Shown here: one piece after another, positions 7,829 through 22,363 of the stretch
Numbering within the stretch: the first letter of the stretch is position 1
Layout of the letters: every line of letters begins with the position of its first letter
Assembly (NCBI GenBank): GCA_020848545.1
Contig: JADLHZ010000012.1
Coordinates: 62,001-126,000 of the forward strand
Reading direction: 5' to 3'
Source of the DNA: Deltaproteobacteria bacterium
GTDB taxonomy: Bacteria > Myxococcota > JADLHZ01
DNA length: 64,000 bases
Notes under the pieces: model-generated
Told to the model about the DNA's origin: nothing
The model's input: only the letters and a program-made list of their open reading frames with translations
Databases searched by the model: none
Program-made: the position numbers and the translations under genes

Positions 7829-9189
7829 CCGCGGCGTTGCTGTGGAGCTGCATGACTCTGATGAGCGCATCCCCGAAGATGAAAGGCGTCGACCGCGTCG
7901 ATCGCCCGGACGGCATCACCCTGCTCGTCGCCGAAGATCGCTCGCTGCCGCGGGTCTCGTTTCGCATCGCGCTGCGCTCGGGCGGCGCCGAAGACCCCGA
8001 CGAGCTGCAGGGCCTCACCCGTGTCACGAGCGAGCTCGTCCTGCGCGGCACGAAGAAGCATGCGCGCCGCGCCTTCAGTGAGCTCGTCGAGGGCTACGGC
8101 AGCTCGCTGAGCGGCGACTCCGGCAGTGAGTCGCAGACGTGGGGCGGCGAGTCGCTCTCGCGTTACTTCGAAAAGACCTTCGCGCTCCTGGCCGAAGCGT
8201 TGTTGGAGCCGGCGTTCGCGCAAGAAGAGCTCGACAAGCTCGTGCGCGAGATGGAGGCCGAGCGCACCACGCGCAAAGACGACGACTCCACGCTCTCGCG
8301 CCTCGCGTTTCGCCGGGCGTTGTACGGCGCCCATGTCTACGGCCGCGATCCGCTCGGCACCAAGGCGTCCCTCGCCGCGCTGACGCCGGAGCACCTGAGA
8401 AAAGAGCACACGCGCCGGCTCGTGCGCGGCAACATGATCGTCGCGGCCGCGGGCGACATCGACGTGGCGACGTTGTCAGGGTTGCTCGACCGCTACTTCG
8501 CTGCGATCCCGGCCGGCGCGTCTTTGAGCAAAGAGATGGCGCCGACGCCGGAGCCGACGGGCATCACCTTGTATGTCGTCGACAAGCCCGAGCGCACGCA
8601 GACGCAGATCATCTTGGGGCGCCCGGCCTTGAAGGGCACGAACCCCGATCACCTGGCGATGAACGTGGCGGCGACGGCGTTCGGCGGCACCTTCACCGCG
8701 CCGTTGATGCACGAGATCCGCGAAGTGCGCGGCTGGTCGTACGGCGCCTACGCCGCGATCAGCGAGATGCGCGGCCGCGGCGGCTTCTCGATGGTCGCGG
8801 CGCCTGCCACCGGCGACACCGTCGGCTGCATCGAGCTCATGGTCGAGCTCTACAAGAAGTTTTGGAACGGCGACTACCCGGCGTCCCTCTTCGAGTTTGG
8901 CCGCTCGTACCTCTTGAACCAATTTCCGTTCAACGTCGCCACGCCCGACGCCCGCGTCAGCGAGTACTTGCACGCCGAGCTCATGGGGTACGGCGACAAT
9001 TGGGTGCAGAGCTTCCCGGACCGCCTCGGCGCGCTGAAGCCCGACGCGATTCGCCAGATGCCCAAGCGCTACCTGAGCGACACCGACTTCATCATCGTCA
9101 TCGTCGCCACCCATAAGGAGCTGCAGAACGCCCTTGCGAACCTGAGCTTCTCGCCCGAGATCAAAGTGTTGCCAGTGGAGGCCGAATGA
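7825..9189 (+). CDS. M16 family partner subunit without the zinc-binding motif
   Basis: 454 residues, the same length as the upstream M16 enzyme and overlapping it by four bases (ATGA), so expression is likely translationally coupled. At the place of HxxEH it reads LTRVTSELVLRGT, so no zinc site is present. The C-terminal lobe keeps EVRGWSYGAYA, the Arg/Tyr substrate-contact motif of M16B regulatory subunits. Family knowledge suggests it completes the active chamber of a heterodimer with the upstream protein. The N-terminus is weakly hydrophobic but not a convincing signal peptide. Confidence 0.9.
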   Translation: MTAALLWSCMTLMSASPKMKGVDRVDRPDGITLLVAEDRSLPRVSFRIALRSGGAEDPDELQGLTRVTSELVLRGTKKHARRAFSELVEGYGSSLSGDSGSESQTWGGESLSRYFEKTFALLAEALLEPAFAQEELDKLVREMEAERTTRKDDDSTLSRLAFRRALYGAHVYGRDPLGTKASLAALTPEHLRKEHTRRLVRGNMIVAAAGDIDVATLSGLLDRYFAAIPAGASLSKEMAPTPEPTGITLYVVDKPERTQTQIILGRPALKGTNPDHLAMNVAATAFGGTFTAPLMHEIREVRGWSYGAYAAISEMRGRGGFSMVAAPATGDTVGCIELMVELYKKFWNGDYPASLFEFGRSYLLNQFPFNVATPDARVSEYLHAELMGYGDNWVQSFPDRLGALKPDAIRQMPKRYLSDTDFIIVIVATHKELQNALANLSFSPEIKVLPVEAE

Positions 9190-18036: not shown

Positions 18037-18405
18037 ATGATGACATTCAGCGAAGCGAAAACGCTAGTTGCGCGCTCGCGGAATCCTTCGCGTTGCCTGC
18101 GCGAGCTTCGCGATGCACTCGGCGGAGCTGAGCTCAACGAGGTGCTCCCAGGTCCGGGCCGTATGAATGCACGAGACGCGCTCGGGACTTTCGAAATTCG
18201 ATCGAAAACCGCGGGTGCAGCAGGCATTGAAATCCTTGGATTCGAAGAGACGCTTGCGGCACTCGAGCCCATGCCGTCGACCTCGCCCTTGCTGCTGTTC
18301 CATTTTTCTTCTGCTAGCCGCACCTTCACGCTGTTCGTCGACGAATCCGCGCAACGACTGATCGGCTGTATTTGCTCAAGGCGAAGGAACCGGTCGGACA
18401 CCTAA
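18037..18405 (+). CDS. Hypothetical protein next to the fold-back repeat
   Basis: 122 residues starting ATGATG. No family recognised. The core looks like a genuine folded protein (EIRSKTAGAAGIEILGF, then LLLFHFSSASRTFTLFVDES), with no signal peptide or membrane helix. Its last residues NRSDT are encoded by a CGGTCGGACACC stretch closely related to the CGATCGGACACT units at the end of the adjacent repeat array, so the element probably supplied the present C-terminus and stop codon. A competing frame on the other strand (18000-18401) overlaps it fully and looks less protein-like. Confidence 0.5.
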   Translation: MMTFSEAKTLVARSRNPSRCLRELRDALGGAELNEVLPGPGRMNARDALGTFEIRSKTAGAAGIEILGFEETLAALEPMPSTSPLLLFHFSSASRTFTLFVDESAQRLIGCICSRRRNRSDT

Positions 18406-18684
18406 AAGGAACCGATCGAAGGAACCGATCGAAGGAACCGATAAGGAACCGATCGAGGAGGAACATGGATCAAATTTCGGCTGGTGTGCGAAAACAGGGA
18501 CTTAGCCGCCTGATCCTAGTTCCTACTCGATCGGACAATTCGATCGAAGGAACCGATAAGGAACCGATCGAGGAGGAACATGGATCAAATTTCGGCTGGT
18601 GTGCGAAAACAGGGACTTAGCCGGCTGATCCTAGTTCCTCCTCGATCGGACACTCGATCGGACACTCGATCGGACACTCTTTAA
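18384..18684. repeat. 115-bp tandem fold-back repeat array
   Basis: Two head-to-tail copies of a 115-bp unit (18426-18540 and from 18541) differ at only two or three positions. Each unit contains a 16-bp inverted repeat: CCGATCGAGGAGGAAC at 18449-18464 and 18564-18579, and its complement GTTCCTCCTCGATCGG at 18634-18649 (one mismatch at 18519-18534). Inside the arms, GGATCA/TGATCC and CGGCT/AGCCG can also pair, so the whole unit folds into a long imperfect hairpin. The array is bordered on the left by several GGAACCGATCGAA units and on the right by three CGATCGGACACT units. No transposase is nearby; it resembles a MITE- or REP-like element or a structured RNA. Confidence 0.85.
18580..18684 (+). 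CDS. 34-codon ORF inside the second repeat copy
   Basis: An ATG directly follows a GAGGAGGAAC Shine-Dalgarno-like sequence inside the repeat arm, at good spacing. The predicted peptide starts MDQISAGVRKQGLSRLILVP and ends with three RSDT units from the CGATCGGACACT triplication, then TAA. The first copy (ATG at 18465) has the same ribosome site and first 20 codons, then reads on into the second copy and stops near 18620. Whether it is translated is unknown; the ribosome site may be a by-product of the palindrome. The stop overlaps the 3' end of the convergent outer-membrane protein gene. Confidence 0.25.
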   Translation: MDQISAGVRKQGLSRLILVPPRSDTRSDTRSDTL

Positions 18685-20162
18685 AATGCAAACGTGGCTC
18701 CCTGCAGAGCAGACACGGCCCAGACGCGCGCTTCCGGCGTAAACGCTCCCCCGAAATATGTGTCAATCGACAGCCATCCTAGGACGTGGAACTGGAGCAA
18801 GGGTTGCGGTCGCAGCCCTAAGTTGTGCACCGATCCGACCGCGAGCGTCGTGCGGATCTCGTGCGGTCTTGGCGCGCGCGCCTCCACCAAGAAGTTCAAC
18901 GCGACGCTGAATGCGATATTGAGGGTGACGATCCGCTTGAATGTCCGGGAGTAGCCAACGAGGGGCGTCGCCCACCAGGTAGTCGGGAGAACGTCGTTCG
19001 GCGCGCTGCGAGCAGCGTAGCTGTAGACGCCCGCTTGAGCAAAGACACTTTCGTTCTCGGCAAGCCAGTAGCGCGCGTCGAGACCAAGCCCCAGCGTAAA
19101 CGTGGCGCCGACTCCGCCGCCCTGAGAGAAATACAACCCCCAGCCGAGCAGCCCGCCCCACAGCGCCAAGTCGTAGCGATCGCTGTCATCCAGGCGGCAG
19201 GCGAGCGCGAGCGTCGCGACGCTCCAGCTCAAGCGATCTGTCAGACCCCACACGATCGCGCTGCGGCTCGCCAGCGACCAGCTCGTCGTGGAGCTCGCCA
19301 ACGGCGCGTCTGGAACCGGGGCCTGTGAGCCTGGAGCAGTAGCGGCCTGAAACCCTAATGCGACGCGCACCTCGGCTTCCATACGGGGCACCGTCGTTCG
19401 CGACACGCGATCGGCGGGCCTCGCCTCTCGCCGCGGACGCGCTTCGACGCTAGCGGGTGCGGCGAATGCCGCTTTGCTCGACGCTTCATCAGTGACCGCC
19501 GCGGAATCGGTACGCCTCGCCTGCTGCGGCGACGGCGCAAGCGCCACGTGAACGTCCGCCACCACCCGCACAAGCGCGCCCTCTCGTTCGACTTGGTAGT
19601 TGATGATCCGCAGCCTGCCGCGCAACAGCGGTTCAGCTCTGCCCTCCGCGCGAGCGGTGCGGTCGATCGCAGCACGGAAAGCATCCATCTCTGCACGAAC
19701 TTGGGCATTATGGAGGTTCGACGACCTCGCCTCCCCTTCGACGTGCGCCGCCGAGAGCCTCGCAAGCGCCGCCACCTCCTCGATCGACCGGCTGAGCACG
19801 ACGCGGCCCGTGATACCCCTGGCGCTGGACGGTTCGAACGTGGATTGCTCGTCTGCGAACGCCAGCGGGCGACCGATCTTCAGACGATCTGCCTCCCGAT
19901 CGAGCACGAAGGCGACGCCGTCGCGGATGATCGCTGCGAGCGCGTCGAGATGCGCTTGCGCTTCGGCTTTCGCTTCGTCAGTACCGTCAGGCAAGAAGAC
20001 GGCAGCAACGACTCGGGGCGCTGGCTGTACGGGCGCGAGCGAAGCACCAGAAATCCCAACGCAGCCGCTCAGCCAGGCCACCCAGACGATAAGCAGTCCA
20101 CGCACAGCCGGCCCCCCAATCGCAGTATGCCACGCTCGGCCCAGACGATGGGTGCCCCTCAT
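18681..20162 (-). CDS. Outer-membrane lipoprotein/barrel protein of unknown function
   Basis: 493 residues. The N-terminal GLLIVWVAWLSGC is a lipoprotein-type signal with lipobox L-S-G-C; a GTG at 20105 would give a normal-length signal and may be the true start. Residues ~45-200 form a soluble Ala-rich helical domain (VVAAVFLPDGTDEAKAEAQA and onwards). A Pro/Ala/Arg-rich linker follows, and the C-terminal ~200 residues show amphipathic strands (SAIVWGLTDRLSWSVATLAL, GVGATFTLGLGLDARYWL) ending in TFAF, a barrel-type terminal Phe. No named family recognised. It is followed on its strand by the repeat array and convergent to the 18037 gene. Confidence 0.65.
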   Translation of the reverse strand: MRGTHRLGRAWHTAIGGPAVRGLLIVWVAWLSGCVGISGASLAPVQPAPRVVAAVFLPDGTDEAKAEAQAHLDALAAIIRDGVAFVLDREADRLKIGRPLAFADEQSTFEPSSARGITGRVVLSRSIEEVAALARLSAAHVEGEARSSNLHNAQVRAEMDAFRAAIDRTARAEGRAEPLLRGRLRIINYQVEREGALVRVVADVHVALAPSPQQARRTDSAAVTDEASSKAAFAAPASVEARPRREARPADRVSRTTVPRMEAEVRVALGFQAATAPGSQAPVPDAPLASSTTSWSLASRSAIVWGLTDRLSWSVATLALACRLDDSDRYDLALWGGLLGWGLYFSQGGGVGATFTLGLGLDARYWLAENESVFAQAGVYSYAARSAPNDVLPTTWWATPLVGYSRTFKRIVTLNIAFSVALNFLVEARAPRPHEIRTTLAVGSVHNLGLRPQPLLQFHVLGWLSIDTYFGGAFTPEARVWAVSALQGATFAF

Positions 20163-20192
20163 CGCGAGAGCTCGATCGAGCAGAAACTACGA

Positions 20193-21995
20193 TCACGCGC
20201 TCGTGTCGCGCTCGGTCGTTTCCGCCGAAAGCGGCAGCTCGATCCAGAAGGTGCTTCCGACGCCGACGACCGAGGTGGCGCCGCACCTGCCGCCGAGCAG
20301 CGCCGTGAACTTGCGCACGATCGCGAGGCCGAGGCCCGTTCCACCGTGCTCGCGGGTGCCGCCATCATCCGCCTGGCTGAACTCCTCGAACATGCGCGGG
20401 ATCTCGTGCGCGGGGATTCCGGGCCCGCTGTCCTCGACTTCGATCCGCACATGCGCGCCGGCGAGCCTACGCGCCGACACGCGCACGAAGCCTCGCTTCG
20501 TGAACTTCACCGCGTTGCCGACGAGGTTGGTGATGATTTGCCGCACGAGCAGCGGGTCCAAGAACAAGCGCGGCAAGTCGCTCGGCACGTCCGCGGTGAT
20601 CGCCAGCGTCTTCACCTTGCCGATCGCGGCGTTGGCGACGGACACGCACTCCGAAGCTAGCGGCGCTAGCTCGAACCAGCTGGACTTGACCCGCATCGCG
20701 CCCGCCTCGGCCTTGGTGAGATCGAGGAGATTGGTGACGATGGTCACGAGGTGCTCGGCCGAGTCGATGCAGCTTTGCAGGTTCGCCCGTCCTTGTTCAT
20801 CGAGCCGTGATCCGGCCGATGTCAGCGTGAGCTCGGCAAAGCCGATGATCCCTTGCAGCGGTGTGCGCAGCTCATGCGACATCATCGCGAAGAACCGCGA
20901 CTTGTAGCGCGCCTCCGCCTCGAGCGCCGCGTTCTTCTGGTGCACCTCTTGGGTGCGCTCCCGCACCTGCTCCTCGAGCGACTCGGTGTGTCGTCGTAGC
21001 GAGGTTCGCGCCACGGCCAGTCGCGCGACGAGCTCGTTCATTGCGCTGCCTAGATCGGCGATCTCGCGGTCGCCACCGATGGGCACGACGAGGCTGAGGT
21101 CATCCGTCCGGCGGATGTCGTCCACGACGAGCTTCAGCACCGAGATCGGTCTCGTGATTCGTTTCGACACGAGAAAGCCGAGCAAAACGACGATGACCCC
21201 GACGATGGCGGCCGTCAACGCGAGCACGACCTCGAGCTGCCTGACCGAGGCGAACACCGTGGACGCCGGGCGCCGGACGAGCACTCGCCAACGCTCTTCG
21301 GGTTTCGGCCCGCCGAGCTCGGCGACACCCACCACGCTCTGCTGCTCATCGAGCGTTTGGACCCCGCCGGCGACGCTGACGAGCACCTGGTCCGCCGCGT
21401 CGACGAGCGCCGCATCTTCGCCGACGTTCTTCGACGACGCCAGCTTCTCGAGCATGCCGCGCAAGGTCCGCTCCGGGAGGAGCCCCCAGATGACGCCGAT
21501 GACGTTCTTCGGGTCTGCACGAGACGCGATGGGAACGGCCAACAGCAACCCGCGGCCATCCTTTGCGAACGAAAAGGCCCACAGCGGACCCTTGGAGAAG
21601 GCGTCGAGCACGGGCGGCATCTGGTCCGGAACCGCGGGAGAGCTGCGCGCGACCGGCTTCCCTTGGGCGTCGTGGACGGCGAGCCAGACGAAGCCGGTAT
21701 CGAGCTCGATGGCCCTGGCCAGGAACACGGCGATCTTTCCGTCGGCGTCGTCCGTGACGACCTCTTGCATGATATCGAGCCGCGACCAGAAGCCGAGCTG
21801 CGCGTTCTTGTCTTTGCGAAACTCGCCGATCGCGTTCGCGACGACGCCGGCGGCACCGCGAAGCTCGCTCTCGATCGCGACCCGCAGCGGCGCCGTGGCG
21901 CTGAAAAAAGCTCCAGCGCCGACCAGCAGGATCGACACCCCGCCCACCAGGGTGATGGCGATGAGCACCGTCGTGCGAACGGACCGGCGCTTCAC
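20193..21995 (-). CDS. Membrane sensor histidine kinase
   Basis: 600 residues. First transmembrane helix near 10-32 (VLIAITLVGGVSILLVGAGA), a ~220-residue periplasmic domain of Cache type (FVWLAVHDAQGKPVARSSP, then DAALVDAADQVLVSV), second helix VLALTAAIVGVIVVLLGFLV, HAMP, a coiled coil, HisKA with phospho-acceptor His in FFAMMSHELRTPLQGIIGF, and HATPase (NLVGNAVKFTKRG, EDSGPGIP, GGTGLGLAIVRKF). The start overlaps the response regulator gene by four bases. The two genes before that encode a phosphate-binding-like protein and a porin-like protein, so the operon probably links nutrient entry to sensing. Confidence 0.95.
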   Translation of the reverse strand: MKRRSVRTTVLIAITLVGGVSILLVGAGAFFSATAPLRVAIESELRGAAGVVANAIGEFRKDKNAQLGFWSRLDIMQEVVTDDADGKIAVFLARAIELDTGFVWLAVHDAQGKPVARSSPAVPDQMPPVLDAFSKGPLWAFSFAKDGRGLLLAVPIASRADPKNVIGVIWGLLPERTLRGMLEKLASSKNVGEDAALVDAADQVLVSVAGGVQTLDEQQSVVGVAELGGPKPEERWRVLVRRPASTVFASVRQLEVVLALTAAIVGVIVVLLGFLVSKRITRPISVLKLVVDDIRRTDDLSLVVPIGGDREIADLGSAMNELVARLAVARTSLRRHTESLEEQVRERTQEVHQKNAALEAEARYKSRFFAMMSHELRTPLQGIIGFAELTLTSAGSRLDEQGRANLQSCIDSAEHLVTIVTNLLDLTKAEAGAMRVKSSWFELAPLASECVSVANAAIGKVKTLAITADVPSDLPRLFLDPLLVRQIITNLVGNAVKFTKRGFVRVSARRLAGAHVRIEVEDSGPGIPAHEIPRMFEEFSQADDGGTREHGGTGLGLAIVRKFTALLGGRCGATSVVGVGSTFWIELPLSAETTERDTSA

Positions 21996-22363
21996 GCTTG
22001 AGCCAGTGCCGCCGCCACGCGCTTCATCAGCTCGGATGGGCGTACGGTCTTCGGGATGAAGCCGTTCGCGCCCGTCCTTTCGGTGAGCTCGCGCAGCTCA
22101 TCCTCTGGGATCGCGGAATAGAACAACACGATCACGCCGCGGAGCGCGGGCTCCTGCTTGATGAGCTGGAGGACCCGTTCACCACTGAGACCGGGCATTG
22201 TGGCGTCGAGCAAGATCAGGTCCGGCTTGATCCGGAGCGCCGTCATCGTAGAGCCAAACGGACCAGCGTTGACGGTGGCTTCCATGCCGGCCGCAGTGAG
22301 CGCCTGGCGCGCGACCTCGGCTGCTTGCGGGTTGTCGTCGATGATCAACACCTTCTTCACCAT
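21992..22363 (-). CDS. Single-domain response regulator
   Basis: 123 residues, only a receiver domain. The acidic pair is IIDDN, the phospho-acceptor is D53 in LILLDATMPGLSG, and the conserved Lys is in GFIPKT. There is no output domain, so it must act by protein contact, or relay phosphate, like CheY or Spo0F. It overlaps the downstream histidine kinase start and is four bases from the upstream binding-protein-like gene, so all three are cotranscribed and the kinase is the natural partner. Confidence 0.94.
   Translation of the reverse strand: MVKKVLIIDDNPQAAEVARQALTAAGMEATVNAGPFGSTMTALRIKPDLILLDATMPGLSGERVLQLIKQEPALRGVIVLFYSAIPEDELRELTERTGANGFIPKTVRPSELMKRVAAALAQA

Follow-up and report, generated by a model that had tools for sequence, protein, structure and literature searches.

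A tandem hairpin pair in a Myxococcota genome and its probable origin from RAYT/TIRYT-like HUH transposon ends

Introduction

What is the tandem pair of hairpins that occupies the gap between two convergent open reading frames in a genome of the Myxococcota, and from what was it built? The pair lies in a 64,000-nucleotide stretch of contig JADLHZ010000012.1 (assembly GCA_020848545.1, Deltaproteobacteria bacterium), which we call the window and whose numbering is used below. An initial annotation of this DNA had proposed a MITE, a REP-type element or a structured regulatory RNA. The first two proposals pointed in the right direction, given that other copies of the arms bracket a RAYT-like transposase gene, while the third was not supported. 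We argue here, with a probability of roughly 0.8, that two non-autonomous elements of the REPIN/TIR-dimer type stand in tandem at this place and that both derive from the ends of an HUH transposon of the RAYT/TIRYT-like kind.

Results

The feature is a head-to-tail direct repeat of two 115-nt units (18413-18527 and 18528-18642) that are 94% identical, with 7 differences, and the two 115-bp fold-back copies described initially are confirmed, the repeat spanning 18413-18642. In both units 24-nt arms, CCGATCGAGGAGGAACATGGATCA and TGATCCTAGTTCCTCCTCGATCGG, flank a 38-nt core. Copy 1 (18449-18534, plus strand) has its arms at 18449-18472 and 18511-18534, with one mismatch in the outer arm, and copy 2 (18564-18649, plus strand) has them at 18564-18587 and 18626-18649, with 16 perfect outer pairs; the 16-bp perfect arms of copy 2 and the inner pairs GGATCA/TGATCC and CGGCT/AGCCG are all present as claimed. 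The proposed RNA folding bore out the structure, as copy 2 reaches -55.3 kcal/mol (z -7.2 against shuffles), far beyond the shuffles. Folded as single-stranded DNA, copy 2 reaches -27.4 kcal/mol (z -7.0) and copy 1 -24.3 kcal/mol (z -6.0), and none of the shuffles attained the energies of the hairpins as RNA or as DNA.

Short repeated units surround the hairpins. Outside the first arm lies a left array of head-like GATCGAAGGAACC units and degenerate forms (18382-18448, plus strand), the first of which overlaps the final codons of the ORF at 18037-18405; it is this related unit that underlies the earlier observation that the border unit also closes the neighbouring ORF. A spacer of head units separates copies 1 and 2 (18535-18563, plus strand). 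The three CGATCGGACACT units reported at the downstream border are present at 18643-18678 and, read inward on the minus strand, this right array consists of GATCGAGTGTCC units followed by the full motif.

We searched for further copies of the arms across the source genome (8 Mb in 163 contigs) with patterns and BLAST, from which the copy counts below are taken. The arm motif GATCGAnnAGGAACnnnGATC occurs in 14 exact copies, whereas its reversed-pattern control occurs in none, even when two mismatches are allowed. Four of these copies are the window arms, five lie on contig C34, one on C5, two on C111 and two on C145, so that the whole-genome search suggested by the initial annotation yielded the motif on four further contigs. 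It also yielded half an element on C145, where positions 2258-2301 match the inner half at 93% over 44 nt; we call this a half copy because only the inner half is shared. A lone motif with one mismatch lies within the window at 20174-20194 (plus strand), where two minus-strand ORFs adjoin, and overlaps the stop codon that ends the sensor-kinase ORF (20193-21995). The region 20193-22363 (minus strand) holds this sensor histidine kinase ORF (HAMP, HisKA, HATPase) adjoining a response-regulator ORF. On C5 (locus L039, 1850-2250) and C111 (L041, 1850-2030), a near-identical stretch ends at a motif copy, beyond which GATCGATC runs of differing lengths follow.

Full copies of the element in the source genome are limited to the tandem two, plus the one half copy and the solitary ends. 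Searched against 58 genomes (its own and 57 of the phylum), the element DNA matched its own genome only, and it had no match among plasmid and phage records. The exact motif had three matches in a contig collection of 85,000 species (in Treponema and Duganella), which is below a rough chance estimate of about 7.

The five motif copies on C34, at 8724(+), 8823(-), 8873(-), 8904(-) and 10068(-), bracket a gene for an HUH/tyrosine transposase of the RAYT/TnpA-REP kind (C34:8977-9996, minus strand, 339 aa), whose ORF sits between the copies at 8904(-) and 10068(-). The protein matches the NCBIfam model for REP-associated tyrosine transposases, NF047646, with an E-value of 1.5e-10, at 41 bits against a curated cut-off of 80, and has no Pfam match when searched alone. 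A profile search against the PDB returned ISDra2 TnpA (2xm3, E 1.2e-4) and TnpA-REP (4er8, E 0.01). In an alignment with nine homologues the N-H-x-H motif, a tryptophan and a tyrosine (Y138) are invariant, and the HUH and tyrosine residues are intact in the C34 protein. The tyrosine motif reads Y-x-x-x-Q (or N/H)-G, with Y---Q in the closest members. All ten aligned proteins match NF047646 and nine of the ten match Pfam Y1_Tnp, and no Pfam match to a helix-turn-helix domain was found in the group. The C34 transposase is the sole member of its subfamily in the source genome, and the four further Y1_Tnp genes there are all on contigs that carry no exact motif copy. Thus, the earlier remark that no transposase is near is right for Y1 transposases on the window's contig, but the matching transposase is found on another contig. 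The element core is absent at C34. We also considered whether the 21-nt motif forms a REP-like bulged hairpin; this fits some C34 copies and neither the window arms nor the copies in a second genome described below (G037), and it was rejected as a trait of the family.

A search of 195 genomes of the phylum turned up homologues of the C34 transposase in 52, and transposase peptide patterns found no confirmed relatives in the 85,000-species contig collection. One genome from a second genus, in another family of the phylum (G037), has three homologues, with 52%, 49% and 48% identity. Of the nine GATCGANCAGGAAC motifs in that genome, eight flank two of the homologous genes (52% and 49%) on both sides, always facing inward; all that the third homologue retains is a decayed CATCGACCAGGAAC on its upstream side. 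In a genome of a third genus (G029), homologues with 45% and 41% identity have GATTAAGCAGGAA as their ends, a sequence found in 23 copies genome-wide compared with none for the control. This genome also contains a dispersed family of elements of about 108 bp with GATTAAGCAGGAA ends, in which inverted arms enclose a short core in the same architecture as in the window (L093, L094, L095, L102, L103 and L105); the other full-length copies found share 75-83% identity with the reference. The copy at L103 looks like a version of the element whose core is mostly lost.

To assess the inverted arrangement of the ends, each left flank was compared with its right counterpart in reverse complement, and swapped flanks provided the null. 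The C34 gene, the genes on C1 and C3 of G037 and those on C41 and C174 of G029 all exceeded the 99th percentile of this null. In a midpoint-rooted tree, the transposases of these three genomes group with that of a fourth (G040) with a support of 100/100, and no clear ends were found at the G040 homologue.

The border units noted in the initial annotation form no feature of their own; they are the head of the motif itself in iterated form. The first bases of the motif are iterated outside the full motif in the window, at C34, at C145, in G037 and in G029, that is, in three genera. Within the outer 60 nt, and with tandem full motifs contributing part of each count, we found 13 GATTAA heads in G029 against 0.4 expected and 15 GATCGA heads in G037 against 0.2 expected, with none on the other strand in either case, and 23 GATCG heads in the source genome against 3.7 expected; in this last case the opposite strand is equally high because CGATCG is palindromic. 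Homologues in other genera of the phylum, in its large-genome family, carry GGTGTCA units, 36 facing inward and 2 outward, a count that is descriptive only because the heptamer was picked after the flanks had been seen. At L092, L059, L060, L062, L063, L066 and L067 the gene is flanked on either side by inward-facing GGTGTCA arrays, which at L066 comprise three units to the left and ten to the right. A de novo scan for inward hexamers over all homologues gave 35% against a null of 17%. Given this mild excess, we limit the claim of iterated ends to specific clades.

Discussion

The window feature and the C34 transposase gene have a rare end motif in common, this motif is placed in inverted orientation around the gene, the association recurs across three genera, and the catalytic residues of the protein are intact. 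On this basis we favour an origin of the hairpin pair from the ends of a single-strand transposon. The transposase would recognise the arms where the strand that carries them is single and folded, as could happen on the lagging-strand template, and its tyrosine would nick beside the motif. The model for this step is TnpA-REP, for which it is established in vitro that it cleaves single-stranded REP next to the hairpin (PMC8266576). The arm-core-arm unit would then have been moved or amplified in trans by way of a folded, single-stranded intermediate, and the outer head iterations and the 115-bp tandem duplication could have grown at the edge of the element, by repeated insertion or by slippage. 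Effects on the convergent neighbour ORFs, if there are any, would be a by-product.

Mobility is what we infer from these arrangements; the comparison, whose nearest genomes belong only to the same phylum, captured neither an empty site nor an event of excision or transposition. Several observations weigh against a mobile element, namely the low copy number in the source genome, the C34 protein that falls under the NF047646 cut-off and is without a Pfam match, the missing core at C34, the G037 homologue with a decayed end only, and the G040 homologue with no clear ends.

It is also conceivable, although doubtful, that the transposase subfamily recognises arrays of iterons that face inward from either side, rather than single GTAG hairpins, and that it may do so by means of its C-terminal domain. 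This idea is modelled on HUH replication initiators, which bind iterons, and draws on the head iteration in three genera and the inward bias of the GGTGTCA units. If it were true, the head-unit arrays around the window hairpins would be functional binding arrays.

Among the alternatives, the repeat might serve as a bidirectional terminator or mRNA 3'-end stabiliser for the convergent ORF pair and have been retained for this role whatever its origin. The hairpin pair does occupy the gap between ORF 18037-18405 (plus strand, 122 aa) and ORF 18681-20162 (minus strand, 493 aa), and its stem is stable. However, a terminator scan performed at chance level and placed no sites at the hairpins, and the arms are also found elsewhere without a convergent-ORF context. 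In addition, the upstream 122-aa ORF may be no real gene, since a search of 195 phylum genomes gave no homologue; it has no Pfam match either. We therefore regard such a role as unlikely, and it would in any case be compatible with a mobile origin.

It is very improbable that the elements are MITEs of a classical DDE insertion sequence with target duplication and are only incidentally linked to the RAYT. Their 24-bp inverted arms and their length of about 90-115 bp would be in keeping with MITEs in general, but the ends bracket an HUH transposase in both the source genome and G037, and related ends are found in G029.

The annotation had further suggested that each hairpin hides or presents a start codon. 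The feature would then be a structured regulatory RNA or a leader peptide, with the hairpin gating the GAGGAGGAAC-ATG of a 34-codon ORF. The GAGGAGGAAC-ATG and the ORF (18580-18684, plus strand) exist as letters, the RNA fold is strong (z -7.2), and a Shine-Dalgarno-like GAGGAG lies 5-10 bases ahead of the ATG. However, an ATG follows AGGAAC in just 2 of 22 motif copies, both of them left arms within the window, which is why we judge the ORF to be coincidental and no gene. Because the 115-nt unit is not divisible by three, the reading frames of the two copies diverge downstream, the 34-aa peptide has no Pfam match, and an Rfam scan of the whole window at gathering scores matched no RNA family. 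The motif also stands at transposase ends and at non-coding positions elsewhere. Gating of a start codon is hardly credible in the face of these results, and the start codon is most simply explained as a chance product of the arm sequence.

Finally, a local chance duplication without relatives, the annotation's own null, could appeal to the fact that the two full copies are adjacent and the only ones, but is refuted by the motif copies elsewhere in the source genome, on four further contigs, and beside homologous transposases in other genera, including G037, with controls at zero.

An otherwise anonymous hairpin is thereby tied to a specific transposase gene on a separate contig. The data also indicate a RAYT/TIRYT-like subfamily in about a quarter of the phylum genomes searched, which differs in its tyrosine motif and whose ends, in several clades, are iterated and face inward. 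This offers a compact system in which to study how single-strand transposases come to mobilise gene-less hairpins that lack a GTAG signal, and how tandem arrays evolve from the ends of transposons.

Comparison with known systems

Short, gene-less, intergenic elements with inverted arms are known as MITEs of bacterial DDE insertion sequences (NEMIS, RUP), from which the present elements differ in that the matching transposase is of the HUH-tyrosine kind and a target-site duplication was not identified. The IS200/IS605 family (TnpA subclass 1.1; ISDra2, IS608) shares the HUH motif and tyrosine, as reflected in the profile match to ISDra2 TnpA, and class 1.1 also has the Y---Q of the closest members (PMC6006769). 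In contrast to that family, the proteins described here have NHxH instead of DHxH, and the C34 protein has 339 aa instead of about 150 aa; the gene is single-copy in the source genome rather than present in near-identical multiple copies, and the ends are inverted and iterated.

Like the REPINs that accompany RAYT genes (Bertels and Rainey 2011, PMC3116915), the window elements combine two inverted arms and a short core into one hairpin and are matched by a cognate tyrosine transposase whose single gene copy lies elsewhere in the genome. The same work described near-identical REPINs clustered in tandem together with their flanks, an arrangement that the units seen here, flanks included, resemble. 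Unlike REPs and REPINs, which number tens to hundreds, there are only a handful of copies (14 exact arm motifs in the source genome, 23 heads in G029). The GTAG (GT[AG]G) foot is likewise lacking, as the window arms have CTAG and CATG in its place and GTAG is found at the C34 copies only. The long perfect stem differs as well from the two small imperfect palindromes of a REPIN.

The closest known kind is the TIRYT or TIRtron, in which RAYT-like genes are bracketed by terminal inverted repeats that also form small dispersed families, as singles, dimers and clusters (Di Nocera et al. 2013, PMC3733652). The likeness lies in a RAYT-like HUH-tyrosine gene (NF047646 E 1.5e-10, below the cut-off; NHxH and Y138 invariant), in its bracketing by inverted repeats of a kind other than GTAG REPs (C34; C1 and C3 of G037; C41 and C174 of G029), and in ends that also occur away from the gene as singles, inverted dimers and clusters, namely the window pair, the copies on C145, C5 and C111, the motif at 20174 and the G029 family. 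The differences are that the ends here, GATCGAnnAGGAAC or GATTAAGCAGGAA, are unrelated to the TIRYT motif GGGGWSAS, and that heads are iterated outside the motif. The proteins also depart from TnpA-Y1 subclass 2.1, which includes most TIRYTs (PMC6006769), as they have about 340 aa and Y-x-x-x-Q (or N/H)-G, compared with the Y---NP and C-terminal HTH of that subclass. In the subclass table of Quentin et al. (PMC6006769), the long subclasses 2.1 and 2.3 have Y---NP and are without REPs, and no subclass combines NHxH, Y-x-x-x-Q and about 330 aa. The window element has the TIRtron architecture, lacks the signature of subclass 2.1, and has neither the copy number nor the GTAG foot of REPs. Thus, the kind of element is already known, and the transposase subfamily behind it, with Y-x-x-x-Q, about 340 aa and iterated inward-facing ends, fits none of the published subclasses compared (PMC6006769).
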